This document shows positions 113 through 10,836 of a stretch of 10,836 nt of DNA, one piece after another. The notes beneath the pieces were generated by a model, which searched no databases, had not been told where the DNA came from, and saw only the letters and a list, made by a program, of their open reading frames with translations. The stretch comes from Campylobacteraceae bacterium UBA1877. GTDB taxonomy: Bacteria > Campylobacterota > Campylobacteria > Campylobacterales > Campylobacteraceae. Where the stretch lies: NCBI GenBank assembly GCA_002352945.1, contig DDHL01000110.1, positions 13,777 to 24,612 on the forward strand, given 5' to 3'. Each line of letters begins with the position of its first letter. Positions within the stretch are counted from its first letter, which is position 1. The position numbers were made by a program, and so were the translations under genes.

Positions 113-124
113 CTTACATGTAAA
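113..124. repeat. Dispersed palindrome, site 1 (one mismatch)
   Basis: CTTACATGTAAA, one mismatch from the consensus TTTACATGTAAA. It is the only one of the ten sites outside a coding region. It sits about 37 bp upstream of the TATAAT box of the DUF4405 gene, so here alone a binding-site role in transcription is conceivable. Confidence 0.75.
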
Positions 125-160
125 GACTATTTAGTTCACATATCATTAACATAAGGAGAC

Positions 161-166
161 TATAAT
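161..166 (+). promoter_or_regulatory. -10 promoter box for DUF4405 gene
   Basis: A perfect TATAAT lies 34 bp before the start codon. TTCACA at 135-140 resembles a -35 box, but its 20-bp spacer is too long for a classical pair, which matters little in Campylobacterota. Transcription would start near 173 and give a short leader with the Shine-Dalgarno AAAGGG at 189-194. Nothing else convincing was seen in 1-200 apart from the leftward -10 candidate, palindrome site 1 and a TTAAT-repeated AT-rich run at about 170-185. Confidence 0.5.
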
Positions 167-200
167 TTGGTTAATTTAATTTAATCACAAAGGGTGTACT

Positions 201-1016
201 ATGAAACTTCGACCATTTATATCTTGGATTATGACTTGGTCTTTTTTGGTGATGACTTGGACAGGAATTATGCTTTTTATTGTCCCAAAGGGGCGTGTAG
301 CAAACTGGGTTCAATGGGAATTTATGGGTTTAAGCAAAGATGATTATACGGCTTTACATGTAATCTTTATGGTTGTTTTTGTTCTTGGTTCAATTGTGCA
401 TATTGTTCTTAATTGGAAAGCGTTAGTTCAGTATCTAAAAAATCGTCCAAGAAGTCCAAAAACAGGTCCAAAAATCCTTGTAAGCACTTTTGCGATTTCA
501 CTTTTTATAGCTTGGGCAACTTTGGCAAATATTGCACCATTTTCTTCATTTTTAGAGTGGCAAGAGGATATTAAAGTCTCTTGGGAAGACCCAAAAACAG
601 AAGCCCCCTATGGACATGCAGAGCTCTCCACACTCAATACTCTTGCAAGCAGAATGGGTTGGGATAAAGACAAAACCAAAGCAGCATTTAGCGAATTAGG
701 GTTTACGCTTACAAGTCCGCAAGATACATTGAATGATTTAGCCAAAACAAACAAGACAACTCCCCAAGCCATCTATGTTGCCTTAGCATCAAAATTAAAA
801 TCTACTTCGACCTCCACCTCAGCCTCTCCAACCAGAAGCGGACTTGGTAGATTAAGCTTATCTCAAGCCGCCAAACAAGAAGGGTTTGATTTAGAAGGCG
901 CAATCAATGCTTTACATGTAAAGGGAGTGAATGCTACACAAGATTCAACCTTAAAACCACTAGCTGAATCCTTAGGAATAACTCCAGGTGAGCTTATTGA
1001 AATACTTAAAAAGTAA
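201..1016 (+). CDS. DUF4405-type membrane protein with C-terminal helical repeats
   Basis: The product is a 271-residue inner-membrane protein of unknown function. Three hydrophobic segments are visible (about residues 8-28, 52-72 and 92-115). The second carries His53 and His67, a 14-residue spacing on one helix that would suit heme ligation; DUF4405 proteins resemble the membrane part of b-type cytochromes, so a redox role is an inference. After the membrane part come two related helical repeats of about 55 residues (about 141-195 and 215-270), joined by a Ser/Thr-rich linker (200-213). Each ends in a Leu-Ala-x(5)-Thr-Pro-x(4)-Leu pattern. The ATG has AAAGGG six bases upstream. The gene stands alone, and its last 11 bp overlap the end of the opposing Nudix gene. 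Two copies of the dispersed palindrome lie inside it, one encoding conserved-looking His53. The family call is from sequence resemblance only. Confidence 0.7.
   Translation: MKLRPFISWIMTWSFLVMTWTGIMLFIVPKGRVANWVQWEFMGLSKDDYTALHVIFMVVFVLGSIVHIVLNWKALVQYLKNRPRSPKTGPKILVSTFAISLFIAWATLANIAPFSSFLEWQEDIKVSWEDPKTEAPYGHAELSTLNTLASRMGWDKDKTKAAFSELGFTLTSPQDTLNDLAKTNKTTPQAIYVALASKLKSTSTSTSASPTRSGLGRLSLSQAAKQEGFDLEGAINALHVKGVNATQDSTLKPLAESLGITPGELIEILKK
353..364. repeat. Dispersed palindrome, site 2 (one mismatch)
   Basis: TTTACATGTAAT inside the DUF4405 gene, read in the Leu-His-Val phase at residues 52-54. The His is the first of the two membrane histidines. Confidence 0.75.
911..922. repeat. Dispersed palindrome, site 3 (perfect)
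   Basis: Perfect TTTACATGTAAA inside the second C-terminal repeat of the DUF4405 gene, read as Leu-His-Val-Lys. The equivalent place in the first repeat reads Ser-Glu-Leu-Gly and has no palindrome. Confidence 0.8.
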
Positions 1017-1590
1017 ATTGAGTCTCTAAGACTTCTTCAAGAAGAATGCTTAAATCCTCTTTTGCACTTCCAGCAAAGGCGTTGGTCACAAAGTGATCGA
1101 TACCTTTGCCATTATGTGAGACAATCGGGACTATTTTTATCCCTGTAGTTTCAGAAAGAAATCTTGATCTATCGCCCTCTTGATAAGCGTGTAGTAAAAT
1201 GGAGCGGGCAAAATTGTTTAAAATGTGATAATAAATGTGCATAAACTCCATCTCATTTACTTCCATTCCGTAAAGATGGGTGCCAATCTTCCACTCATGA
1301 GATGCAATTCCATGGATTTTTGAAGGCCTGATTTGAATGCCAATCTCCTCTTTAATTTCTCGCTCTAGCGCTTCGATTAAAGATTCATCTTTATTTGCAG
1401 TTCCACCAGGAAAGCCCATCCTTCCATCCCATCTATCAATCATGATGATTCCAGGACAGCTTGATGTGTTTATATCGTCATTAAAATATTTCCATGGTGA
1501 AATTTGACGCGAATAGATAGCTAAAAAGACAGCGTGATTTTTATGAAGATTCCTTTTACCAAAGGGGATGCGTTTTTTTTCTATCTGCAC
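1006..1590 (-). CDS. Nudix hydrolase resembling eukaryotic NUDT16
   Basis: A 194-residue Nudix enzyme, expected to cleave nucleoside diphosphate-linked compounds with Mg2+ or Mn2+. The Nudix box is complete at residues 63-85 (G-x5-E-x7-REIKEEIGI), with catalytic Glu78, Glu81 and Glu82. The arrangement DGR-x-GFPGG just before the box, and a C-terminal F-x2-N-x-F-x-GSA-(K/R)-E-x-L segment (about 167-180), recall the NUDT16 family of vertebrates, which acts on (d)IDP and on capped RNA. This is a memory-based match, so the substrate remains open. The start is a GTG with AAGGA five bases upstream, overlapping the fliY stop, which makes this the last gene of the flagellar run, 8 bp after fliY. Its end overlaps the converging DUF4405 gene by 11 bp. 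No terminator hairpin was found. Confidence 0.85.
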   Translation of the reverse strand: MQIEKKRIPFGKRNLHKNHAVFLAIYSRQISPWKYFNDDINTSSCPGIIMIDRWDGRMGFPGGTANKDESLIEALEREIKEEIGIQIRPSKIHGIASHEWKIGTHLYGMEVNEMEFMHIYYHILNNFARSILLHAYQEGDRSRFLSETTGIKIVPIVSHNGKGIDHFVTNAFAGSAKEDLSILLEEVLETQFTF

Positions 1591-1598
1591 TGAAGTCC

Positions 1599-2456
1599 TT
1601 AGCGCAACTTTTCTAAACGCTCACGTTTGGTGCCAATTTCGGTAACTTGCACACCAAAGTTGCCATCTACAATCACAACCTCTCCCATGGCAACTACCTT
1701 ATCTCCAACTAAAATCTCCAAAGGGTCATTAGCAAGCTGATTTAACTCTATTACAGAGCCAATATCCATACTAAGCACATCTTTTAAAAGCATCTTTTTT
1801 GATCCAATTCTTACACGAACCGGCAGCTGTACATCCATAATAAGAGCAATATTGCGCATCTCTTCGCTGCTTAAATCACTCTCAACCGGTTCATTTTTAA
1901 GTACATTTTCATGACTCACAGGTGTTTCTTGGGTCTCTTTATTATCATTAAGGGCACGCTCAAGAGCTTGGTCGGTTACAAAGATAACTTGATCAGTGAT
2001 TGTTTGAATGCTCATAGAGTGCAAATAAGCTGTTTGCATTCCCGAAAAATCAACCATCGAGTTTGCATCTATAAATGAGATCGACTCAACACTAAAAGAG
2101 AGTTTTGGTAAATCTTTTTGCCCACCAAGAGCGGTTGCAAAGGAGCCAAAAACATTTGAGATAATCTCCTTTGTAGCATCCAAATCATCATCATCCATAC
2201 TGTCCTTACCAACAGCTTCCTCTTCACCCATCATCAAAGCACCGATTCCAGTAGCCAAAGATGGAGCAATGGCTACTTTTATGCGCCCATCAATATCGCC
2301 GCTAACAAGTACTGAAACTAAAGCCACTGGAGGAACAACAGAAGTATTTTTTTGTGCATCTGCAGTATCTACAAATTCTAGCTTTGGCACTTCACCGGTT
2401 AATCCTTCGATAGTTGAAACCAGCTCTTGGCCTAGCAGTGTAATAAATCTATTCAT
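1599..2456 (-). CDS. fliY: Flagellar switch protein FliY (FliN family)
   Basis: This is a component of the cytoplasmic C-ring of the flagellar motor, which works with FliM and FliG in torque generation and switching. With the start used here it has 285 residues, near the size known for Helicobacter FliY. The N-terminal two-thirds (about 1-170) is CheC-like, an acidic linker follows (about 170-200), and the C-terminal SpoA/FliN domain covers about 203-280 (with LPVRVRIG and a LLKDVLSMDIGSVIEL-type core). In the CheC-like part, Glu97 and Asn101 are four apart rather than three, so the CheY-phosphatase motif looks degenerate. The ATG at 2456 was chosen because a very strong AGGAGG lies six bases upstream. 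A longer reading from 2516 would add 20 residues, overlap fliM by 68 bp and lack family support. It overlaps the fliM end by 8 bp. Confidence 0.92.
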   Translation of the reverse strand: MNRFITLLGQELVSTIEGLTGEVPKLEFVDTADAQKNTSVVPPVALVSVLVSGDIDGRIKVAIAPSLATGIGALMMGEEEAVGKDSMDDDDLDATKEIISNVFGSFATALGGQKDLPKLSFSVESISFIDANSMVDFSGMQTAYLHSMSIQTITDQVIFVTDQALERALNDNKETQETPVSHENVLKNEPVESDLSSEEMRNIALIMDVQLPVRVRIGSKKMLLKDVLSMDIGSVIELNQLANDPLEILVGDKVVAMGEVVIVDGNFGVQVTEIGTKRERLEKLR

Positions 2457-3528
2457 TTGCAGCCTCCTCCTCTTGGGCATCATATGAGGATACTTTAGCA
2501 CGTCTGTCCATTTCATACTCTTCTAGAAGTGCTTTAATTTCATCACGATCTGTTTTTATCAACTCTTTAACCTTTATAGATTTTCTAAATCGGTGCAATC
2601 CAATTTCGGCTAAGAAAATATCTTTTCTATCAATTGTAACAATTGCATGGTCATCTGCTGGCCTATCAAGACGCAAAATATCTCCCTCTTTTAAATCAAG
2701 TAGCTCACTAACAGTCATTGTTGTACGCCCTAAGAGTGCTTCGGTAAAAACCTCTGCCCGTCCAACCAAGGTTTTTAACTCTTTATTGCGGCTCTTTTTA
2801 GCCGATGTTTCACCAAGCATAATATCACGATTTGCCAAGCGAGACAAAATAGGCTCAAGATAGATAACAGGATAGCATAAATTTATCATGCCGCTTGAAT
2901 TGCCAATAATTATCTCCATGACAACCATGATAACAATCTCGTTTTGGGAGACAATTTGAACAACATTTGGGCTTGACTCTTTTGACTCTACGTTAGGATA
3001 CATATCAGTTATCGGGCTCCACGCCTCTTTTAAACGCTGCATAATAATACGCAAAATAGCGTCTAAAAGATTTAACTCTATATCTGTTAGCTCTCTAGTT
3101 GACTCATATGACTCTCCACTTCCTCCAAGAAGCCTATCTATCATCGGAAAAGCAATCGATGGATTAATTTCAATTACACAGCTTCCATCCATTGGCTTTA
3201 TCGAAAAGACATTAAAGCTTGTTGGGCTCGGCAAGCTCATTAAAAACTCCCCGTAAGTCATTTGATCAACCGAATGGAGTTGGATTTCTACAATGGAGCG
3301 CATAATTGAAGATATTTGAGATGCTAAATTACGAGCCATTTTATCATGAATGCCCTTGACTGCACGCAGTTGCTCTTTTGAAACTCTATTTGGGCGCTTA
3401 AAGTCATATAAAATAACTTGACGGGTCTCTTCTTGTTCGGCAACGCTTGAAGCAATATCTGCATCACCCTTTTCATCCACAACTTCAAGTAGCGCGTCAA
3501 TCTCTTCTTGACTAAGAATATCAGCCAT
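2449..3528 (-). CDS. fliM: Flagellar motor switch protein FliM
   Basis: A 359-residue C-ring protein that binds phosphorylated CheY and transmits the switch signal to FliG. The N-terminus holds the CheY-binding peptide (LSQEEIDALL, residues 5-14). A linker and the CheC-like middle domain (about 40-235) follow, with the GGSG loop at 135-138 that in the family contacts FliG. A C-terminal SpoA domain covers about 255-325, and the tail is acidic and charged. The length is typical. Its ATG overlaps the fliA stop by 8 bp, with AGAGG about nine bases upstream, and its own end overlaps fliY by 8 bp, so the sigma factor and both switch proteins appear translationally coupled. No oddities in the key motifs were seen. 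Confidence 0.96.
   Translation of the reverse strand: MADILSQEEIDALLEVVDEKGDADIASSVAEQEETRQVILYDFKRPNRVSKEQLRAVKGIHDKMARNLASQISSIMRSIVEIQLHSVDQMTYGEFLMSLPSPTSFNVFSIKPMDGSCVIEINPSIAFPMIDRLLGGSGESYESTRELTDIELNLLDAILRIIMQRLKEAWSPITDMYPNVESKESSPNVVQIVSQNEIVIMVVMEIIIGNSSGMINLCYPVIYLEPILSRLANRDIMLGETSAKKSRNKELKTLVGRAEVFTEALLGRTTMTVSELLDLKEGDILRLDRPADDHAIVTIDRKDIFLAEIGLHRFRKSIKVKELIKTDRDEIKALLEEYEMDRRAKVSSYDAQEEEAANE
2463..2472 (-). promoter_or_regulatory. Strong Shine-Dalgarno that sets the fliY start
   Basis: GAGGAGGAGG on the minus strand, within the end of fliM, six bases before the ATG at 2456. It is one of the strongest ribosome binding sites in the window and argues that the switch subunit starts there rather than at the upstream ATG at 2516. 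Confidence 0.8.
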
Positions 3529-4228
3529 CTTTTAATGCCTCTCGAATTTTTTGCATCAACTTCTTATGGATTTGAGAAATTCTTGATTCACTAATTTCCA
3601 AAATAGAGCTGATCTCTTTTAAATTTAACTCTTCAAAATAGTATAGTTGGATAATCAACTGCTCTCGCTCTTTGAATGTGCTAATAATACCACGAATCAT
3701 CTCCATTAGCTGATCTCTTTCCACTATAGCATCTGTCTCATCGCCTTCATACAAAGTCATCTGCTCATTAATAGGCAAGGTAGTTGCCACCATAGATGCA
3801 TTTCGTGCCTCTTTGATTTTTTCCACATCTTCTTCTAGTTTTTGCGCTAAATACTCATCATCTGGCTCTTCGCCATGGATATTAAAATAGCAATCTATCT
3901 CATATTCAATCTGTTTTAAAAGCTTTCTATTTGCCCTGCTTAACACATCTAGCGAGCGTAAAAAATCGAGCATTGAGCCGTAAACTCTCTTTTTTCCATA
4001 CCCCCAAAAAGAGTCATTTTGTTTCTCATCATAGCGGCGAGAGAGTTTTATCATCTCTTCAACACCAATTGAAATCAAATCATTCACATCCACAGATGCC
4101 GGCAAACGCTCTTTAAGACGATAAGCCATAGCGCGCACAGCGGGCATATACTGGATTACCAAATCATCTTGGTGTTTTTTAGCATTTTGACTGTATGCAT
4201 TAAGCTGCTTTTTTGCGTACGGGTTCAT
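3521..4228 (-). CDS. fliA: Flagellar sigma factor FliA (sigma-28)
   Basis: A 235-residue alternative sigma factor that directs RNA polymerase to late flagellar promoters and is normally held back by FlgM. Region 2 covers about residues 23-95 and contains the family-typical MAYRLKERLP and the D-x-N-DLISIG segment, followed by the Asp-Phe-Leu-Arg-Ser-Leu-Asp stretch. Region 3 is about 98-150. Region 4 has a helix-turn-helix at about 201-230 (LNLKEISSILEISESRISQI). The ATG gives the usual family N-terminus, but its Shine-Dalgarno is weak (GAGAGAG), and the first 29 bp overlap the preceding membrane-protein gene, so expression may depend on coupling to it. The overlap with fliM is 8 bp. Confidence 0.95.
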   Translation of the reverse strand: MNPYAKKQLNAYSQNAKKHQDDLVIQYMPAVRAMAYRLKERLPASVDVNDLISIGVEEMIKLSRRYDEKQNDSFWGYGKKRVYGSMLDFLRSLDVLSRANRKLLKQIEYEIDCYFNIHGEEPDDEYLAQKLEEDVEKIKEARNASMVATTLPINEQMTLYEGDETDAIVERDQLMEMIRGIISTFKEREQLIIQLYYFEELNLKEISSILEISESRISQIHKKLMQKIREALKDG

Positions 4229-4556
4229 GCTCTCTCATTCTATTTGTAACTACCGATCCCTCGTGAGGAGAATTTGAATCGATTAAAGATTCCATCTTCT
4301 TTTCTCTCTCTTGCAATTCATAGATAAAATAGGCGCTTGCATCTTCATATTGTCGATAATCAAAAAGCCTTTTTCCAGCCTGATTTACATCCATAAAATT
4401 CATCACAATAATATGTATCAAAAGATAGAAAAAAAGAGTAATTCCAAAAGTGTACATTAATATCTCTATAGGATCAAAGGTTTTTAGCACAGCAAAAATA
4501 AGTCCAATAAAAAACCCGCACACAGTAAAAAAAGAGATGAAATTCTCAGGGCGCAT
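4200..4556 (-). CDS. Small conserved membrane protein between flhG and fliA
   Basis: A 118-residue protein of unknown function. Two hydrophobic helices (about 6-25 and 30-53) are followed by a charged cytoplasmic tail with an Asp-Tyr-Arg-x-Tyr-Glu-Asp-Ala stretch (66-73), then a Lys/Glu-rich helix. It has one of the best ribosome binding sites in the window (AAAAGGAGG at 4574-4566, nine bases before the ATG), which supports real translation. It starts 27 bp after flhG and overlaps fliA by 29 bp. From memory, Campylobacter jejuni has an integral membrane protein of the same size class in the same slot (Cj0062c), so position seems conserved. Linkage suggests a motility-related role, but nothing in the sequence assigns one. 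Confidence 0.85.
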   Translation of the reverse strand: MRPENFISFFTVCGFFIGLIFAVLKTFDPIEILMYTFGITLFFYLLIHIIVMNFMDVNQAGKRLFDYRQYEDASAYFIYELQEREKKMESLIDSNSPHEGSVVTNRMREHEPVRKKAA

Positions 4557-4583
4557 CCGTGCAAACCTCCTTTTATAGTAGTA

Positions 4584-5450
4584 CTAAAATTGCTCCATAA
4601 GCCGCTTGAAAAAGCCACCAAAACTCCGACTCGATTTATCATCAAGCACTTTTCGTTCCAGACGATAGACTAAATTGTTTACAATCTTTTTCATATCCAT
4701 TGACGCCGTTGAGTTTGGCGAATCGTTGGTAAAAAGTGTTCGCTGTTTAATGCTTCGTGAAACTCCTTTATCTTCTGGTAATTTTCCAAGTAAATTTAAC
4801 TCTAATCGCGGACCTATATTTTGCCTCGCGACTTTTTTTATCTTTTCAAAAATTAATTCCGCTTCTTTTTCATTGCGGGTCATATTTAATATCATTTGTA
4901 ATGAATCTTTTATCTTACTAGTTACCTTTATAGTTGCGTAAGCATCGGTAATAGCCGCTGGGTCTGGAACGGTTACAATAATGACCTCATCAGCAGCCTC
5001 TAAAAAAATCTGAATCGTCTCTCCTATGCCCGCTCCTGTATCGATAATCAAAAAGTCTAAACCATCTAAGCTTTTGGCTTCCTCAAAGAAACGTTCATAT
5101 ATAAATTGGTCATTATATTTTAAAATCTCATCTCCACTTTCACCTGGAATTAAAAAGAGATTCGATTTAATTGGAATGATTATATCCTCTAATGAACACT
5201 CCCCTTTTAGTACATGTAAAAGAGTCTTTTGAATCCGGACATTTAAAATAACATCCAAATTTGCCAACCCAATGTCTGCATCTAAAAGTCCAACCTTATA
5301 TCCATGATTTGAGAGGATATTGGCCATATTTGCACTCACTGTACTCTTTCCGACTCCGCCCTTTCCACTTGTGATTGCAACCACATGGGTTACATGATTA
5401 TCTAAGTTTGGCTTCACAAGGGATTTGAGTTTATTGGCTTGATTTTCCAC
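4584..5450 (-). CDS. flhG: Flagellar number regulator FlhG (MinD-like ATPase)
   Basis: A ParA/MinD-family ATPase that limits flagellar number and works against the GTPase FlhF at the cell pole. With the GTG start used here it has 288 residues. Right at the N-terminus is NQANKLK, a version of the DQAxxLR motif that in this family stimulates the FlhF GTPase. The deviant Walker A (GKGGVGKST, about residues 29-37), the Asp-Ala-Asp-Ile-Gly switch (57-61) and the DTGAG motif (137-141) are intact. The C-terminal FGGFFKRLMEQF can form an amphipathic membrane-targeting helix, as in MinD. I chose GTG at 5450 because AAGGA lies five bases upstream. The ATG at 5471 would add seven residues but has no Shine-Dalgarno. 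The gene overlaps flhF by 20 bp (41 bp with the ATG). One palindrome copy lies inside. Confidence 0.93.
   Translation of the reverse strand: MENQANKLKSLVKPNLDNHVTHVVAITSGKGGVGKSTVSANMANILSNHGYKVGLLDADIGLANLDVILNVRIQKTLLHVLKGECSLEDIIIPIKSNLFLIPGESGDEILKYNDQFIYERFFEEAKSLDGLDFLIIDTGAGIGETIQIFLEAADEVIIVTVPDPAAITDAYATIKVTSKIKDSLQMILNMTRNEKEAELIFEKIKKVARQNIGPRLELNLLGKLPEDKGVSRSIKQRTLFTNDSPNSTASMDMKKIVNNLVYRLERKVLDDKSSRSFGGFFKRLMEQF
5209..5220. repeat. Dispersed palindrome, site 4 (two mismatches)
   Basis: AGTACATGTAAA on the plus strand. The 8-bp core TACATGTA is intact, but the flank is the weakest of the ten. In flhG, read on the minus strand, it encodes Leu-His-Val. Confidence 0.6.
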
Positions 5451-6729
5451 AAGAATCCTTTTTGAATCCATCGAGCATACACTCTACCAAATACTCACTA
5501 CTTGCTACGCGCAAGTCATCAGGAACCTCCTGACCTACAGAAAAATAGCTTACTGGCTTATCAATGTCGTAAATCAACGAAAAGATATTTCCAAATACCT
5601 TTGTTTCATCAAATTTTGTAAAAATCAAAGTATCAATATTTAAAAATGAGAAATTTTTGTAAATCTCTTTTAGATCTTCTAGTTTTGTTCCAGCAGATAG
5701 AAATAAGTTTACATCAATTTGCGCATCAGTATGTTTTAAAAAGTTATCAAGTTTTGTCAATTTCTCCCTATCATATTGGGAGCTTCCAACTGTATCAATT
5801 AAGATAATATCGCAATGCCCAAGTGAACGCACTGCATTTTCAAAATCGTTTATATCAACCACATCTTCAACTGGCAAACGCATCATTTTAGCATATTGAA
5901 AAAGCTGCTCTACTGCTCCGATTCTATATGTATCAAGGGTGATTATGCCAACCTTATAGCGCTGCTGGCAAAGGTATGAGTAGCGCGCTGCAAGCTTAGC
6001 TAAAGTTGTAGTTTTTCCAACTCCGGTTGGTCCAACAAACATCATAATCTTTTGTTGCCCTTTTACAATTGCAGACTCAAGCCGAACTGGAATCATTTTG
6101 CGAAGCAAAACTTGAAAATAGCGCTTGATTGTTTCACTGCTGCTTTTCATACGGTTTGGCATATGCTCAAGAGTAAGACGCATAATGGTGCTTAAATGCT
6201 CTTTGCTCATTCCGCTTTGGCCGGCTAATTTATAAATTTGAGAAAATTCAGGCGGAATTGCCAAATTTCCACGCATAGGAGCCTTTTCATCCCAAAACAT
6301 CTCTTGGATGAGTTTTATTTTATCAGCGAGCTTATTTATCTCTTGTTTTATCTGCCCTAACTCTTCTAGGGGCATTTGTGTACTTTTCTCTTTAGTGTGC
6401 AAAAAGGAGTTTGTAGTAGCGCTTGGAGTGGATACTTGTGCAATTTGGGAAATCTGTTTTGCAGCTTCTGAAATGTTTAAAAGCACATCTTCGCCGCGTA
6501 CAGGTTTTTTGCTCTCTTTAGTCTCTGGCTTTTGTAAAGAGGGACTGCTTTGCTCTTTTGGCTCATTAGACTCATCTAAAGCCACAACAATCTCATATAA
6601 AGCAGGTGAGTTGATGCTCTTTTTTTTAATCTGTTTAGTGCTCATAACAAAGGCATTCTCACCGCACTCTTGCTGAGCTTTTTTTAATGCCTCCGCTGGA
6701 GTCTCACCAGTAAAAGTTAAAAATTTCAC
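5431..6729 (-). CDS. flhF: Flagellar placement GTPase FlhF (SRP family)
   Basis: A 432-residue signal-recognition-particle-type GTPase that marks the pole for flagellar assembly and, in Campylobacter-type bacteria, also affects sigma-54 flagellar gene expression. The N-terminal B domain (about 1-150) begins with the typical KFLTFTGETPAEALKKAQ and continues into a low-complexity, charged linker. An N domain (about 155-225) precedes the G domain: GPTGVGKT at 233-240, DTYRIGA at 266-272, DTVG at 312-315, TKFDE at 371-375 and a closing SVGQEVPDDL at 397-406. All nucleotide-binding motifs look intact. The start is GTG with AAAGGAG five bases upstream, sitting in the end of folK one base away. The 3' end overlaps flhG. 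Confidence 0.95.
   Translation of the reverse strand: MKFLTFTGETPAEALKKAQQECGENAFVMSTKQIKKKSINSPALYEIVVALDESNEPKEQSSPSLQKPETKESKKPVRGEDVLLNISEAAKQISQIAQVSTPSATTNSFLHTKEKSTQMPLEELGQIKQEINKLADKIKLIQEMFWDEKAPMRGNLAIPPEFSQIYKLAGQSGMSKEHLSTIMRLTLEHMPNRMKSSSETIKRYFQVLLRKMIPVRLESAIVKGQQKIMMFVGPTGVGKTTTLAKLAARYSYLCQQRYKVGIITLDTYRIGAVEQLFQYAKMMRLPVEDVVDINDFENAVRSLGHCDIILIDTVGSSQYDREKLTKLDNFLKHTDAQIDVNLFLSAGTKLEDLKEIYKNFSFLNIDTLIFTKFDETKVFGNIFSLIYDIDKPVSYFSVGQEVPDDLRVASSEYLVECMLDGFKKDSCGKSSQ
5456..5460 (-). promoter_or_regulatory. Shine-Dalgarno favouring the GTG start of flhG
   Basis: AAGGA on the minus strand, five bases before GTG 5450. No comparable purine run precedes the alternative ATG at 5471. 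It lies within the end of flhF, so FlhF and FlhG synthesis is probably coupled. Confidence 0.6.
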
Positions 6730-6730
6730 C

Positions 6731-7198
6731 TCAACTCCTTTGATTTAATAGCTGCAATGGCACTAAAACCGACAAGCGGTCCTTCCATCCTGGATGGGGC
6801 AAATTTAAATGTTTCGTGCGCATCCAAACATCCTCATAAAAAATTAAATCCAAATCCAATGTACGAGGGCCGTTTGCAAATTTACGCACCCTCCCAAACC
6901 GTTTTTCGGTATGAAGGAGCAGTTTTAAAAGTTTTTGCGCCGAAAGGCTTGTTCTTACTTTTGCTACAGCATTGAAAAAATCGGCTTGATCCAAAAATCC
7001 AAATGGAGGATTTTGCACAATTGGCGAAGTTTGCTCTACATGTAAAAGAGGATGGTTTAGCCAATAGCGCATCAAAAGCTCAAAACGCTTCCTAACAGCC
7101 CCCACATTTCCGCCAATTCCTATCCAAGCTTCATATTTAAAAGCTCTTTTTGTTTTTCTAAAACTTGGAAAATTGGCGCTCGTATAGATTTGAATCAT
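6731..7198 (-). CDS. folK: 7,8-dihydro-6-hydroxymethylpterin pyrophosphokinase (FolK)
   Basis: This enzyme transfers pyrophosphate from ATP to 6-hydroxymethyl-7,8-dihydropterin, the step before dihydropteroate synthase in folate synthesis. The 155-residue protein has the glycine-rich GIGGNVG near the start of the domain (27-33). It also has the HPPK signature RTLDLDLIFY at 112-121, with metal-binding Asp115 and Asp117, and LPHPGWKDR at 133-141 with the usual substrate-loop residues. About 22 residues precede the domain start of classical enzymes, so there is a short N-terminal extension. Its ATG shares one base with the peptidase stop (TAATG), a sign of translational coupling, and it ends one base before flhF. 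One palindrome copy encodes Leu-His-Val at 52-54. Confidence 0.92.
   Translation of the reverse strand: MIQIYTSANFPSFRKTKRAFKYEAWIGIGGNVGAVRKRFELLMRYWLNHPLLHVEQTSPIVQNPPFGFLDQADFFNAVAKVRTSLSAQKLLKLLLHTEKRFGRVRKFANGPRTLDLDLIFYEDVWMRTKHLNLPHPGWKDRLSVLVPLQLLNQRS
7035..7046. repeat. Dispersed palindrome, site 5 (one mismatch)
   Basis: TCTACATGTAAA on the plus strand, inside folK. Read on the minus strand in the Leu-His-Val phase. Confidence 0.7.
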
Positions 7199-8229
7199 TA
7201 CATAACCCTAATTTTATCAGATTCTACAACAATCATATCCTCGATCCTTACGCCAATCTCATCGGGCAAGTAGATTCCAGGCTCAATGGTATAGACCATT
7301 CCAGGCTCTAAAACATCCTTACTTGAGGCCGAAATAACAGGTAATTCATGAATATCCCTGCCAACCCCGTGACCGGTTGAGTGGACAAAATATTTGCCAA
7401 ATCCCGCTTTTTCAATTACATCTCTAGCTGCCCTATCCACCTCGCACGCTCTTATTCCTGGTCTTGAAATAGCAATGGCAGCTTCTTGGGCTTTTAAAAC
7501 TGTATCATACACCTTTTGATGGAGGGGATTTTTAAAAGTTTGGTTTTTAGATGCATCCATCTTCTTATCGACAAAAAAAGTTCGGGTTCTATCCGAACAA
7601 AAACCATCTTCAATGACACCAGCATCTAAAAGAAGCACATCGCCCCAATTGAGTTTCACATCCGTTGGCAGGGCGTGCGGTTTTGCTGCATTTGCATTAA
7701 TTGCCACAATTGGCGAAAAACTCACATCACGCTGACCTTTACATGTAAAGATTCGCATCGCCTCATAATGGAGCTCTTTTTCGCTCATTCCAATTCCATC
7801 TGTTTTAATAAATTCAACAAATTCATCAAATGCCTTAGCGCCTAAATCAACAGCATTTTGCAAACGTTTAATATCATCATTTGATTTTATAAGGCGCATC
7901 TTTTGAGCAAGGTTGGATTTTGGAATAAAATGGACAAATTCAAATCCCTTTTTTAACTCTTCAAAGGCTTGAACCTTCCACTCTTTTGGATCGTACTCAA
8001 CCCTTTTTACTCCAAGACGGCGCAGCCAAAGGCGAAGAGTTTTTATAAGCGACCTTCCTCCTTTGATAACTTGAGCTCTTTTTCCAAGGGCTTCATTGGC
8101 CTCTATGACATAGCGACCATCAGTGATGAAATACTGCTTAGATGGAGTTTTAAGCACGATTGCATTATCGCATCCAAACCCGCACGAATCCATCTGTGCA
8201 GCTTGACTTAAAAGCAGGGTTGCGCGCAT
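7198..8229 (-). CDS. pepP: M24-family Xaa-Pro aminopeptidase/dipeptidase
   Basis: A cytoplasmic metallopeptidase of the creatinase/prolidase fold, expected to remove residues next to proline. The 343-residue protein has a small N-terminal domain (about 1-115) and the pita-bread catalytic domain (about 118-340). The five metal ligands can be placed: Asp202 (LLLDAGV), Asp213 (CSDRTRTFF), His287 (TGHGVG), Glu316 (TIEPGIY) and Glu330 (VRIEDM). His185 in the KPHALP motif is also present. Whether it is aminopeptidase P (pepP) or prolidase (pepQ) cannot be decided from the sequence. It starts 6 bp after aroQ with only a weak Shine-Dalgarno, and shares a TAATG junction with folK. One perfect palindrome encodes Phe-Thr-Cys-Lys at 161-164, just before the conserved SFSPIVA strand. 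Confidence 0.88.
   Translation of the reverse strand: MRATLLLSQAAQMDSCGFGCDNAIVLKTPSKQYFITDGRYVIEANEALGKRAQVIKGGRSLIKTLRLWLRRLGVKRVEYDPKEWKVQAFEELKKGFEFVHFIPKSNLAQKMRLIKSNDDIKRLQNAVDLGAKAFDEFVEFIKTDGIGMSEKELHYEAMRIFTCKGQRDVSFSPIVAINANAAKPHALPTDVKLNWGDVLLLDAGVIEDGFCSDRTRTFFVDKKMDASKNQTFKNPLHQKVYDTVLKAQEAAIAISRPGIRACEVDRAARDVIEKAGFGKYFVHSTGHGVGRDIHELPVISASSKDVLEPGMVYTIEPGIYLPDEIGVRIEDMIVVESDKIRVM
7738..7749. repeat. Dispersed palindrome, site 6 (perfect)
   Basis: Perfect TTTACATGTAAA within the M24 peptidase gene, read as Phe-Thr-Cys-Lys. One of only two sites using this reading phase. Confidence 0.8.
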
Positions 8230-8235
8230 TAAATC

Positions 8236-8712
8236 TTAAGCTTTCTCTTTAGCAGCCTGAGCTTTGCGAACCGCTGCTACCTCATTTAGGATTTGAATCA
8301 TTGAAATCATTGCAAGATGGTATCCAAATGGTCCAAATCCACTAATTTGACCTGTACAAACAGGAGCAGTTAAACTTTTTTGGCGAAACTCTTCACGGCG
8401 ATGGATATTGCTAATATGCACTTCAACTGTTGGAATAGCAACTGAGCTAATAGCATCTCTAATTGCAATTGAAGTGTGGGTATAAGCTGCTGGGTTAATA
8501 ATAATTCCATCAGCCTCTCCAAGACACTCTTGAATACGATCTACTATCTCTCCTTCTAGGTTTGATTGGAAAAATTCGATTTCGATATTATTTTGCTTTG
8601 CTACATTTTCCATTTGACTATGGATCTCTTCAAGTTTCATAGCGCCATAAATGGACTGCTCACGATGTCCTAGCATGTTGAGATTTGGGCCTTGAATTAC
8701 AACTATTTTCAT
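8236..8712 (-). CDS. aroQ: 3-dehydroquinate dehydratase, type II (AroQ)
   Basis: This enzyme dehydrates 3-dehydroquinate to 3-dehydroshikimate in the shikimate pathway; the type II form is a dodecamer unrelated to AroD. The 158-residue protein begins with the typical [10 protein letters not shown]. It keeps the full active site: Arg17 and Tyr22 on the lid loop, Asn73, His79, Glu97, His99 and Arg110, all offset by two from Mycobacterium numbering. The ATG at 8712 was chosen because AAAGGA ends five bases upstream; a GTG immediately before it (8715) is a less likely start. It is the first gene of the leftward run, with an extended -10 promoter some 32 bp upstream, so it probably leads the transcript that continues into the flagellar genes. 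The C-terminus is Ala/Lys-rich. Confidence 0.95.
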
Positions 8713-8743
8713 CACTATCCTTTGTAAAAATAAGTAAGTTTCG

Positions 8744-8752
8744 ATTATAACA
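8744..8752 (-). promoter_or_regulatory. Extended -10 promoter of the leftward operon
   Basis: On the minus strand this reads TGTTATAAT, a consensus extended -10 (TG-n-TATAAT). Transcription would begin near 8737 and give a leader of about 25 bases with AAAGGA before aroQ. It is the only good promoter seen ahead of the nine leftward genes. Confidence 0.6.
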
Positions 8753-8769
8753 ACATCAAGCTAAAAATT

Positions 8770-8778
8770 TGCTACAAT
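8770..8778 (+). promoter_or_regulatory. Extended -10 promoter of the rightward pair
   Basis: TGCTACAAT fits TG-n-TATAAT with one change. The start would be near 8785, followed by a T-rich leader and AAAGGA at 8802-8807, five bases before the ATG at 8813. The two opposed -10 boxes are only about 23 bp apart, so their upstream regions overlap. Confidence 0.5.
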
Positions 8779-8812
8779 GTTTTTTTATTATAAATAAAAC
8801 TAAAGGAACTCA

Positions 8813-10039
8813 ATGAAATGCTTACATGTAAACTATGCAATACCATGTACAAAACCCTTTACATGTAAAGAGAATTACGCAATTGTTTTTGATACGCATA
8901 TTATCGATTTTGGACCAAAAGAGCTCATAACAAAACGCTATCCAAATGCAAAAAATATAATTTCAAAAGGCCAAAGTGTTCTTTTGCCGGGGCTAATAAA
9001 TCCCCATGTGCATTTAGAGTTTTCTGCTAATCAAGGAGTGCTTGATTTTGGAGATTTTATTCCTTGGCTTCAATCTGTAATTAAGCATAGAGACGAGCTA
9101 CAAAAGGCAATTAGCTCTGAGAAGATTTTAAATACCCTAACTTCCATGCTTGCAAGCGGAACTACAGCAATAGGTGCAGTTAGTAGCTTTGGACTTGATT
9201 TGGATGCGTGTTTAAAAACCCCTTTACATGTAACATACTTTACTGAAATTTTAGGCTCAAGACCCGATGCGGTTGATATTCTTTTTAATGATTTTAAATC
9301 CAGACTAAATAGCGTATTAAAGAGTGCAAATAAAAGCTTTAGTCCGGCAATCTCAATCCACTCGCCCTATTCAACCCATCCAATCTTAGCCCAAAATGCA
9401 CTAGATATTGCAAGAAAAGATGATCTTTGTGTTTCCACTCACTTTATGGAATCCCAAGCCGAACGCGAATGGCTCGATAGTGCAAGCGGAGGGTTTAAGG
9501 AGTTTTTTAATGCCTTTTCGCCCTATGCAAAACCTTTTTGCAATGCAAAGGGATATCTATCTTTGTTTGAAAACAACCACACCCTTTTTACCCACGCAGT
9601 ACAAGCAAAAAAGAGTGAACTTGAGTATATTAAATATCAAGGAGGCTTTATCACCCACTGCCCAGTTTCAAATAGAGTTTTAGGATGCGGGCTTTTAGAT
9701 ATTAATAGGCTAAATCAGATGCAAATCTCTTGGCATCTTGGCACTGACGGGCTTAGCTCAAATATCAGTTTAAGCCTTTGGGATGAGATGAGAAACGCAC
9801 TGATGATGCATCAAAATTTTCCTCTCAAAGAACTTGCAAAAGAGCTTTTAATGGGCGCTACTGCAAATGCAGCAAAAGCTCTTAGACTCAATGCAGGCTC
9901 ACTTGAAATTGGAAAAGAGGCCACTTTTTTAATCCTTGATCTTCCAGGAGCAAGCCTCTCAAACTTGCCGCTTCATGCAATCTTGCACACAAAAAAACCA
10001 CAATCAATATATATTCAAGGAGAAAAAATAGATGTTTAG
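8813..10039 (+). CDS. mqnF: Amidohydrolase, probable aminofutalosine deaminase (MqnF-like)
   Basis: A 408-residue COG0402 amidohydrolase. The metal and catalytic residues of the deaminase class are visible: His65 and His67 (NPHVHLEF), His210 with Glu213 three residues on (THFMES), His261 (THAVQ), the HCPVSNRVL segment at 282-290, and Asp312 (LGTDGLSSN). Relatives from Nitratiruptor and other Campylobacterota deaminate 6-amino-6-deoxyfutalosine in the futalosine route to menaquinone, so that is the best guess. The subfamily also contains other purine-nucleoside and triazine deaminases. The start has AAAGGA five bases upstream. Two palindrome copies lie within the first 20 codons and a third further in. 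The stop region overlaps the sppA start by 8 bp. Confidence 0.75.
   Translation: MKCLHVNYAIPCTKPFTCKENYAIVFDTHIIDFGPKELITKRYPNAKNIISKGQSVLLPGLINPHVHLEFSANQGVLDFGDFIPWLQSVIKHRDELQKAISSEKILNTLTSMLASGTTAIGAVSSFGLDLDACLKTPLHVTYFTEILGSRPDAVDILFNDFKSRLNSVLKSANKSFSPAISIHSPYSTHPILAQNALDIARKDDLCVSTHFMESQAEREWLDSASGGFKEFFNAFSPYAKPFCNAKGYLSLFENNHTLFTHAVQAKKSELEYIKYQGGFITHCPVSNRVLGCGLLDINRLNQMQISWHLGTDGLSSNISLSLWDEMRNALMMHQNFPLKELAKELLMGATANAAKALRLNAGSLEIGKEATFLILDLPGASLSNLPLHAILHTKKPQSIYIQGEKIDV
8821..8832. repeat. Dispersed palindrome, site 7 (one mismatch)
   Basis: CTTACATGTAAA beginning at codon 3 to 4 of the amidohydrolase, read as Leu-His-Val. Its centre lies 37 bp before that of site 8. Confidence 0.75.
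8858..8869. repeat. Dispersed palindrome, site 8 (perfect)
   Basis: Perfect TTTACATGTAAA at codons 16-19 of the amidohydrolase, read as Phe-Thr-Cys-Lys, so the two neighbouring copies use different reading phases. Confidence 0.8.
9223..9234. repeat. Dispersed palindrome, site 9 (one mismatch)
   Basis: TTTACATGTAAC within the amidohydrolase gene, read as Leu-His-Val at residues 138-140. Confidence 0.75.
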
Positions 10040-10836
10040 ATCCCTTTTTAGAGCAATAGGAGCAATTTTAAGCTTTATAAATAATCATATTAAGGCTCTT
10101 TTATTTTTGCTTTTTATTGGATGGCTGCTAAGCCAAAGTCAGCAAGATCCCACTCAAACTCCAAACCTTGCCCAAGTTAGTATCCATGGGGCGATTGAAG
10201 ATGTAAGCGAACTTGTTGAAAAAATCGACTCACTTAAAAACGATGATTCCATCAAAGGAGTACTTTTACATGTAGACTCTCCAGGCGGAGCTCTTGGTCC
10301 TTCAGTTGAATTGATGCTAGCTGTAAAATCTCTTGCAAATTCAAAACCAGTTGTAGCATATGCGGCCGGAACAATGGCAAGCGGAAGTTATTATGCAAGT
10401 ATTTATGCACAAAAGATAGTTGCAAATCCTGGAGCTTTTGTCGGCTCTATTGGCGTGCTTTTTCAAGCCCCAAATATCCAACCTCTTGCTGATAAAGTTG
10501 GTATCAAAGAGCAGGTAGTTACAGCAGGAAAATATAAGCAGATGGGAACCTTTACAAGAGAGTGGCAAAAACATGAAAAAGATGCACTCCAAAAACTAGT
10601 TGATGAGGCTTATGAAATGTTTGTAAAAGATGTCGCAACAGCTAGAAAGCTAGATGGCTCTAAAGATGACATATTTGCACAAGGACAACTCTTTTTGGCC
10701 ACAAAGGCTAAAGAGATTGGCTTAATCGATGATATTGGCGGATATTTGGATTCAAAAAGGCTCGTTGAAAAATTAAGCAAGGTTCAAAAACCCCACTGGA
10801 AAAAACCATCCCAATTTGTGACAATAAAGAGCATCA
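10032..10836 (+). CDS. sppA: Signal peptide peptidase SppA, short form (3' end cut by window)
   Basis: A membrane-anchored serine protease of the S49 family that degrades leftover signal peptides. 268 residues are visible with no stop, and the short single-domain form is only a little longer, so little is missing. A single hydrophobic anchor lies at about 20-34. The catalytic Ser117 sits in MASGSYYAS, and Lys169 (GKYKQMG) is 52 residues later, the same spacing as the Ser-Lys dyad of Bacillus SppA. Other conserved parts are DSPGG (82-86) and VGSIGV (137-142). The ATG lies inside the end of the amidohydrolase gene, with AAGGAG nine bases upstream, so the two are probably co-transcribed. Residues 79-81 are Leu-His-Val, set by a palindrome copy. 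Confidence 0.92.
   Translation, partial: MFRSLFRAIGAILSFINNHIKALLFLLFIGWLLSQSQQDPTQTPNLAQVSIHGAIEDVSELVEKIDSLKNDDSIKGVLLHVDSPGGALGPSVELMLAVKSLANSKPVVAYAAGTMASGSYYASIYAQKIVANPGAFVGSIGVLFQAPNIQPLADKVGIKEQVVTAGKYKQMGTFTREWQKHEKDALQKLVDEAYEMFVKDVATARKLDGSKDDIFAQGQLFLATKAKEIGLIDDIGGYLDSKRLVEKLSKVQKPHWKKPSQFVTIKSI
10265..10276. repeat. Dispersed palindrome, site 10 (one mismatch)
   Basis: TTTACATGTAGA in sppA, encoding Leu-His-Val immediately before the conserved Asp-Ser-Pro-Gly-Gly. The folK copy has the same sequence when read on its coding strand. Confidence 0.75.

Follow-up and report, generated by a model that had tools for sequence, protein, structure and literature searches.

The DNA considered here, a stretch of 10,836 nucleotides from Campylobacteraceae bacterium UBA1877 (C35:13777-24612 of our genome G000, a 1.94-Mb draft that is 82% complete; hereafter the window), carries ten copies of the 8-bp palindrome TACATGTA, which we call the core, each inside a perfect or imperfect copy of the 12-bp palindrome TTTACATGTAAA. 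Comparison of genome sequences makes it probable, in our judgment, that TACATGTA belongs with the highly iterated palindromes and needs a solitary DNA methylase of the NlaIII type for its upkeep, and that it is in effect a methylase-dependent tag.

Abundance and Anatomy of the Palindrome

Markov models of orders 1-3, the orders used throughout, predict 0.09-0.16 cores in the window. The original prediction, which assumed about 38% GC (base counts give 38.2%), had put the expectation at 0.3-0.4; the excess it reported stands, and its figure was conservative. Nor is the excess a property of the window. The whole G000 genome holds 559 exact copies of TTTACATGTAAA against 1 of the reversed palindrome, and 1031 of TACATGTA against 17 reversed, a 60-fold excess. 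Sampled stretches of G000 totaling 424 kb, about 6 kb of them in common with the window, contain 234 cores where an order-3 model with the motif masked expects 3.4. Neither a count near Markov expectation nor enrichment confined to the window is what these figures show. In the first samples from G000 and from the Sulfurospirillum genome G387, no 8-mer was more over-represented than TACATGTA, and in Sulfurospirillum and some related bacteria its density is about 1 per 2 kb.

The 12-mer was first taken for the repeated unit. The conserved unit proves instead to be the 8-mer, set in lineage-specific flanks; in places rich in the motif, 8-mers with one mismatch do not, taken together, depart from background. 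In 766 kb from Sulfurospirillum genomes that bear the enzyme described below, there are 444 cores against 5.6 expected, and the 12 one-off classes sum to 196 against 208; variants at the outer positions number 39 against 38.5, with AACATGTA at 14 (18.4 expected), CACATGTA at 7 (11.0), and GACATGTA alone doubled at 18 (9.1). Core specificity is nearly all-or-none over 8 bp. The flank in the window's lineage is TT..AA; T occupies position -1 in 0.85-0.93 of sites in G000, G152, G387, and G213 (S. deleyianum), is mixed with C in G364 and G270, and gives way to no clear preference in G318. Farther out, AT content in these seven samples undulates with a period of about 11-12 bp and a similar phase across genera, and stretches rich in AT, broadly shared between genera, lie beyond the core edges at distances of about 6-9 and 17-21 bases. 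Of the pairwise correlations, 20 of 21 are positive (one = 0.01; permutation p 0.006); G387 and G213 were sampled in part over orthologous regions, so these two samples are not independent. The undulation may be a lead toward a DNA-bending protein; it is not proof of one.

Sites lying wholly within open reading frames (ORFs) number 53 of 81 in G000 and 55 of 86 in G387. The remainder (28 of 81 and 31 of 86) fall where only 11-12% of bases are outside ORFs, an approximately threefold enrichment of non-ORF DNA. With most sites inside ORFs, and not mainly in promoters, we rejected a transcription-factor operator; a gene-family motif was rejected as well, the sites being spread over unrelated genes and between genes. 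On both points the earlier reading of the window agrees with the positions of sites relative to ORFs. Regular spacing was suggested by the first blocks, which were under-dispersed, and was not borne out by a pooled test (lower-tail p 0.20-0.40, no more regular than Poisson), from which most G000 blocks had been dropped because of N. One 20-kb stretch of G270 (L373, G270:C3:1-20000) has no core, where other sampled G270 blocks have 7-10 per 20 kb; it is possibly a foreign contig, and its genes, ordinary-looking by eye, led us to reject a phage. Two S. diekertiae plasmids have 14 cores in 39.9 kb and 13 in 38.0 kb and no 12-mer, which places the core on resident plasmids too (the 39,868-base plasmid of S. 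diekertiae is present in genome G171). Among viral contigs, a 14-mer scan matched at least 120 stretches; of the 80 analyzed, four have at least 0.4 cores/kb and at least 3 cores.

A Solitary Methylase and Its Slot

A PF02086 scan of 71 genomes, followed by clustering and a 35-protein tree, led to one enzyme family, with the typical start MNYIGSK and a DPPYN motif. It is likely a solitary NlaIII-type DNA methyltransferase of the D12 class, acting on N6 of adenine; modification methylase NlaIII is the name of 3 of 120 relatives among the matches listed, and a PDB sequence search returned no relative. Thirteen methylases from high-copy Sulfurospirillum genomes form one clade (100/100), and those of G000, G151, and G152 another (100/100), with a common neighbor resembling a short-chain dehydrogenase. 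On either side of the G387 gene are a transglutaminase-like gene and a gene for a response regulator. The G000 gene, on contig C26, lies between a GGDEF-type gene and a DJ-1/PfpI-like gene (neighbors by eye); N runs occur within the GGDEF-type gene (L076, 143-1403).

An endonuclease gene beside the methylase was not encountered as a general feature. A Pfam scan of 20 neighbors at 12 methylase loci found ICEA, which we take to be the NlaIII-type endonuclease family, only at G198, and Eco57I-type methylase-like neighbors at G318 and G452. Since G198 has the enzyme, a nearby ICEA gene, and 25 cores, it looks like ordinary restriction-modification (R-M). From gene neighborhoods, then, the palindrome is found with the solitary form of the predicted enzyme and not with its one clear R-M form.

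In 14 genomes (G171, G201, G213, G280, G300 [S. oryzae], G310, G330, G339 [S. barnesii], G348, G387, G398, G423, G468, and G483), the enzyme adjoins the transglutaminase-like gene. In six others (G225, G260, G290, G408, G372, and G453), this slot is empty, and 585-711 bases separate the transglutaminase-like gene from cheY. These six are three sister pairs on the species tree, G225+G260, G290+G408, and G372+G453 (support 94/93, 100/100, and 100/100), the first nested within enzyme-bearing species (100/100). Among Sulfurospirillum genomes at least 90% complete, all 12 that bear the enzyme have the transglutaminase-like neighbor and 484-576 cores/Mb; the six with an empty slot have 42, 96, 122, 243, 249, and 323 cores/Mb (densities computed on rounded genome sizes) and still hold 109-841 cores each. 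More broadly, genomes with any NlaIII-like enzyme have a median of 460 cores/Mb (n = 42) and those with none 126 (n = 28), a difference (p 8e-5) uncorrected for kinship; this 70-genome comparison was coded by hand, with G493, whose gene is split, counted as lacking the enzyme. G017, scanned for the enzyme only, and G143, counted for cores only, were left out. We found no remnant of the enzyme in the empty slots (best protein match E 0.061 and best DNA match E 0.038, among matches listed). By eye, these slots (L114, L116, L117, L120, L122, and L123) appear to contain a small lysine/alanine-rich ORF of about 80 codons, and part of the upstream stretch also matches enzyme-bearing slots.

Fate of Ancestral Sites

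Three orthologous 20-kb regions from 17 Sulfurospirillum genomes were aligned to G387, and a core was counted as ancestral if present in clade B and in another A subclade. Eight enzyme-bearing A genomes retain 211 of 243 genome-site cells (0.76-0.97 each), where control 8-mers are retained at 0.38-0.43; three B genomes retain 69 of 84 (controls 0.28). The empty-slot genomes G408, G290, and G372 keep 8 of 19, 6 of 19, and 8 of 20, close to their controls (0.29-0.34). G260 and G225 keep 4 of 27 and 1 of 25, together 5 of 52, which is lower than their controls of 0.39 and 0.38 (p 0.0002 and 0.0095 in G225/G260); this may mean that the positions of the sites are free to vary, or that a site is disfavored when unmethylated. 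Bases flanking ancestral sites are conserved alike in all genomes (0.85-0.88), and motif bases fall from 0.92-0.996 with the enzyme to 0.69-0.75 in G225/G260. For 8-mers shared in the flanks, survival is 0.34-0.44 where the enzyme is present and 0.25-0.33 in G260/G225. Decay products are visible where the slot is empty, with GACATGTA at 41 (5.5 expected) and CACATGTA at 21 (6.1), as against the 18 and 7 already given for genomes that keep the enzyme. Across Sulfurospirillum these comparisons show site upkeep going with the putative enzyme.

Taxonomic Distribution

At least 20 exact 12-mers occur in 36 of 398 Campylobacterales genomes, in three families: f20, the family of Sulfurospirillum (genus g31), f16, and f1, which is represented above 20 in that sample by the window's genome only. 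Family f1 is probably Campylobacteraceae; the best match to the window, 85% over FlhG, is in a Campylobacterales metagenome-assembled genome. The reversed-palindrome control never exceeds 6. In a family sample of 153 genomes, six reach 20 12-mers, and of a further 121, a phylum sample whose coverage was Campylobacterales only, four exceed 28 cores (G000 1031, G171 1372, G201 1516, and G247 608). The palindrome is limited to some lineages: besides the family of Sulfurospirillum, parts of two other families have it, and the majority of the Campylobacterales sampled do not exceed background.

Evidence That Does Not Fit

Several observations weigh against a palindrome maintained by this enzyme. 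The enzyme's site is inferred from family names, NlaIII itself presumably recognizing CATG. Many cores occur where no intact enzyme was detected: 1201 in G320, 1124 in G237, 611 in G268 (one contig), 484 in G428, 379 in G356, 368 in G422, 304 in G488, and 259 in G458, with 887 in G393, which has a C-terminal enzyme fragment only, and 975, 897, and 1582 in the incomplete genomes G443, G478, and G493 (the last with the gene in two pieces). Conversely, an enzyme relative accompanies few cores in G187 (28), G198 (25), G463 (92), G138 (98; 59% complete), G298 (99), G418 (104), and G413 (165). G290 and G408 carry another enzyme subtype elsewhere and are of intermediate density, and genus g10 is mixed (G141 874, G142 696, and G138 98 with the enzyme; G139 30 and G144 12 without). 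Apart from G198, the exceptions may reflect losses that are recent, contigs that are missing, replacement by non-homologous enzymes, or enzymes of the ordinary CATG kind. We looked for another methylase family behind them and rejected it: PF01555 matches occur in 7 of 20 genomes in no fitting pattern (no further comparison was made). The statistics also call for caution. A tree-corrected sign test on the three pairs finds agreement in two and no difference in one (p 0.5), a test without power because there are only three losses; the Fisher p values for retention overstate certainty because cells within subclades share ancestry; and in two of the three cases the slot may instead have gained the gene repeatedly.

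Other methylase genes were seen along the way. On the S. diekertiae plasmid pSDCE1 (L208, NZ_CP059996.1, 1692-4637), an NlaIII-like methylase gene lies beside IS21 istA/istB and contains four TACATGTA cores; pSDIE1 has a similar gene, in pieces. G225, the most site-poor Sulfurospirillum examined, has a 678-aa ORF (L081, G225:C1, 3955-6012) with a D12-type DPPY motif and a start that we take to match a C5 cytosine methylase motif, possibly a fused double methylase. The two pieces of the G493 gene are 245 bp apart at a contig end (L338, G493:C239), which may reflect an insertion, a duplication, or an assembly fault. A type II dehydroquinase gene adjoins the G270 methylase (L049, 614-1096).

A Proposed Methylated Tag and Its Alternatives

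We suggest that the enzyme's target for methylation is the palindrome or the CATG within it, that the methylated site would act as a genome-wide tag read by another protein, and that sites would be kept or regained if untagged variants were disfavored or replaced. A methylation-linked signal was among the roles originally proposed, and the comparative evidence (slot, density, and retention in Sulfurospirillum) points there. As to what the tag is for, the likeliest single reading, which we hold tentatively and by analogy, is that of a methylated self-DNA signal in the uptake and recombination of kin DNA. We favor it because in C. jejuni, another member of the order, DNA must be methylated at RAATTY by CtsM before it can be taken up (RAm6ATTY; PMC10046745). 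In a more speculative form, to which we give somewhat less credence, methylase-marked TACATGTA would be an epigenetic passport for kin DNA in the Sulfurospirillaceae and relatives: competence machinery would admit mainly marked DNA, this bias would have amplified the palindrome to more than 1000 copies without MutL repair, and the sites would decay once the methylase was lost. ComEC, the only competence gene searched for, is present in 49 of 49 genomes, motif-rich and motif-poor alike, so we rejected loss of competence as the cause of low core counts.

Ranked next, though we think it rather unlikely, is a binding site for a protein of the nucleoid, of segregation, or of replication, switched by methylation and selected for chromosome upkeep and not for uptake. 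The fairly even spread in several samples, the cores on the two S. diekertiae plasmids, and a flank undulation that may mean bent DNA would all suit such a protein, but pooled spacing is no more regular than Poisson, and the viability of empty-slot genomes with 109-841 cores implies that no fixed core density is essential. Improbable in our estimate is a classical uptake sequence without methylation, in which a receptor prefers TTTACATGTAAA, biased transformation accumulates it, and the methylase merely travels along. Uptake signal sequences (USS) of Haemophilus have flanks with a similar AT-rich undulation, as recurs here across genera, and the universal ComEC would allow the process; yet ComEC is equally present in motif-poor genomes, and site loss accompanies an empty slot. 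USS and the DNA uptake sequences (DUS) are usually non-palindromic and generally have one-off variants in excess, whereas this site is a perfect palindrome whose one-off variants together are not in excess. Its density and flank dialects do resemble those of Neisseriaceae DUS (PMC3630211).

The direction of cause could be the reverse, the palindrome being selected for an unrelated reason and the methylase lost after the sites had gone. With no enzyme detected in either, G320 and G237 each have over 1100 cores, and G320, at 500 cores/Mb with neither enzyme nor slot detected, keeps 13 of 19 ancestral cores (control 0.35). These genomes are drafts of about 10 and 40 contigs, so that the gene may be unassembled, and G320 is also without the slot's neighbor gene; G260, G290, G408, and G372, by contrast, have already lost the gene and still have many more cores than chance would give, and we regard reverse causation as quite improbable. 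Slightly less credible still is a by-product of methyl-directed mismatch repair, as in the Elhai model for the highly iterated palindrome (HIP) HIP1, where repair favors methylatable strands. The methylase link and the density are like those of HIP1 (PMC4390886), but MutL (TIGR00585) exceeds the cut-off in 0 of 31 genomes, as opposed to 11 of 14 controls (MutS was not searched), with only weak short matches in 21 of the 31, and the outer-position one-offs (AACATGTA, CACATGTA, and GACATGTA, values above) show no clear excess. As MutL was not found in those genomes, the published HIP1 mismatch-repair model does not transfer, and this reading is largely refuted unless methylation is read here by a repair system that does without MutL. 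Chance, base composition, or an R-M artifact can practically be dismissed: 8-bp palindromes do vary in frequency, and nothing more speaks for it, whereas within G000 the palindrome outnumbers its reversed form 60-fold, and the slot neighbors in Sulfurospirillum are a transglutaminase-like protein and a response regulator. R-M recognition sites are usually avoided (PMC4687349); we rejected such restriction-site logic, as the first G387 sample shows no avoidance of ACATGT beyond the core (24 outside the core; 24.0 expected in all).

Sites in the Window

A search of the window for the 12-mer with up to two mismatches gives 11 matches, against 1.38 +/- 1.19 (maximum 4) in 200 dinucleotide-preserving shuffles. 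The match at 4783, with two mismatches and no core, is not counted; the other ten reproduce the sites of the original prediction, three perfect, six with one mismatch, and one with two. As had been described, they lie in unrelated genes on both strands and between genes, eight within predicted ORFs and two outside:

113..124: CTTACATGTAAA, one mismatch, core TACATGTA at 115-122; outside predicted ORFs
353..364: TTTACATGTAAT, one mismatch, reads ..ALHVI..; in ORF 201-1016 (+)
911..922: perfect 12-mer, extends to CTTTACATGTAAAG, reads ..ALHVK..; in ORF 201-1016 (+)
5209..5220: AGTACATGTAAA, two mismatches, reads ..LLHVL..; in FlhG/MinD-like ORF 4584-5471 (-)
7035..7046: TCTACATGTAAA, one mismatch, reads ..LLHVE..; in ORF 6731-7198 (-)
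7738..7749: perfect 12-mer, extends to CTTTACATGTAAAG, reads ..IFTCK..; in peptidase-like ORF 7198-8229 (-)
8821..8832: CTTACATGTAAA, one mismatch, reads ..CLHVN..; in aminofutalosine deaminase family ORF 8813-10039 (+)
8858..8869: perfect 12-mer, extends to CTTTACATGTAAAG, reads ..PFTCK..; in the same ORF, 8813-10039 (+)
9223..9234: TTTACATGTAAC, one mismatch, reads ..PLHVT..; in the same ORF, 8813-10039 (+)
10265..10276: TTTACATGTAGA, one mismatch; outside predicted ORFs

The in-frame readings are xLHVx at six sites and xFTCK at two, the two phases that escape the stop in TAC ATG TAA. The window, too, has a type II dehydroquinase gene (8236-8715), distant from G000's own methylase.

Relation to Known Systems

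We know of no settled explanation for HIP1 since the 1990s. If the palindrome described here is what we suppose, it is a second HIP-like system, in culturable environmental bacteria where MutL, which the main HIP1 model requires, was not found; the natural losses of a single gene serve as an experiment with replicates, and the purpose of iterated palindromes becomes testable in Sulfurospirillum. The passport reading, if true, would bring HIP-like palindromes and uptake sequences under a single mechanism. Searches of the open-licence literature (for the motif, Sulfurospirillum palindromes and methylome, HIPs, Campylobacterota uptake sequences, and orphan methyltransferases) returned no description of the element, in keeping with the earlier statement that none was known for this phylum.

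HIP1, already named as the closer analogue, is borne out as such: the palindrome here occurs about once per 2 kb, in unrelated genes and between them, in extreme genome-wide excess, and tied to a solitary methyltransferase, a link that holds in Sulfurospirillum and is looser elsewhere. In cyanobacteria, HIP1 and alternate HIPs are palindromes at about 1 per 1-2 kb, tied to solitary methyltransferases and rare in some relatives, and a mismatch-repair ratchet has been proposed for HIP1 (Elhai 2015, PMC4390886). The differences are that HIP1 is GCGATCGC, whereas TACATGTA in Campylobacterales is AT-rich; that the enzyme here is a predicted D12 NlaIII-type adenine methylase, MutL was not found in the 31 genomes searched, and losses map to one gene slot; and that the outer-position bias of one-offs is not encountered (39 against 38.5, GACATGTA alone being raised).

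Like DUS and the USS of Pasteurellaceae, the palindrome has hundreds to thousands of copies and a constant core with lineage dialects; it differs in its perfect symmetry, its nearly all-or-none core, and its methylase link, and the competence machinery, present in the form of ComEC, does not discriminate. Lineage dialects are described for Neisseriaceae DUS (PMC3630211). NlaIII/HpyI-type CATG R-M systems share the methylase family, and an ICEA-family gene lies near the G198 copy, but the Sulfurospirillum enzyme is a solitary one, the site shows enrichment and no avoidance, and the conserved unit is 8 bp and not CATG. CtsM and RAATTY of C. jejuni come from the same order, and there too an adenine methylase marks a motif of palindromic type. 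CtsM marks kin DNA for uptake, a likeness that for our palindrome would hold by analogy only. RAATTY is short and common by itself, whereas few copies of TACATGTA are expected by chance and its numbers have been amplified.

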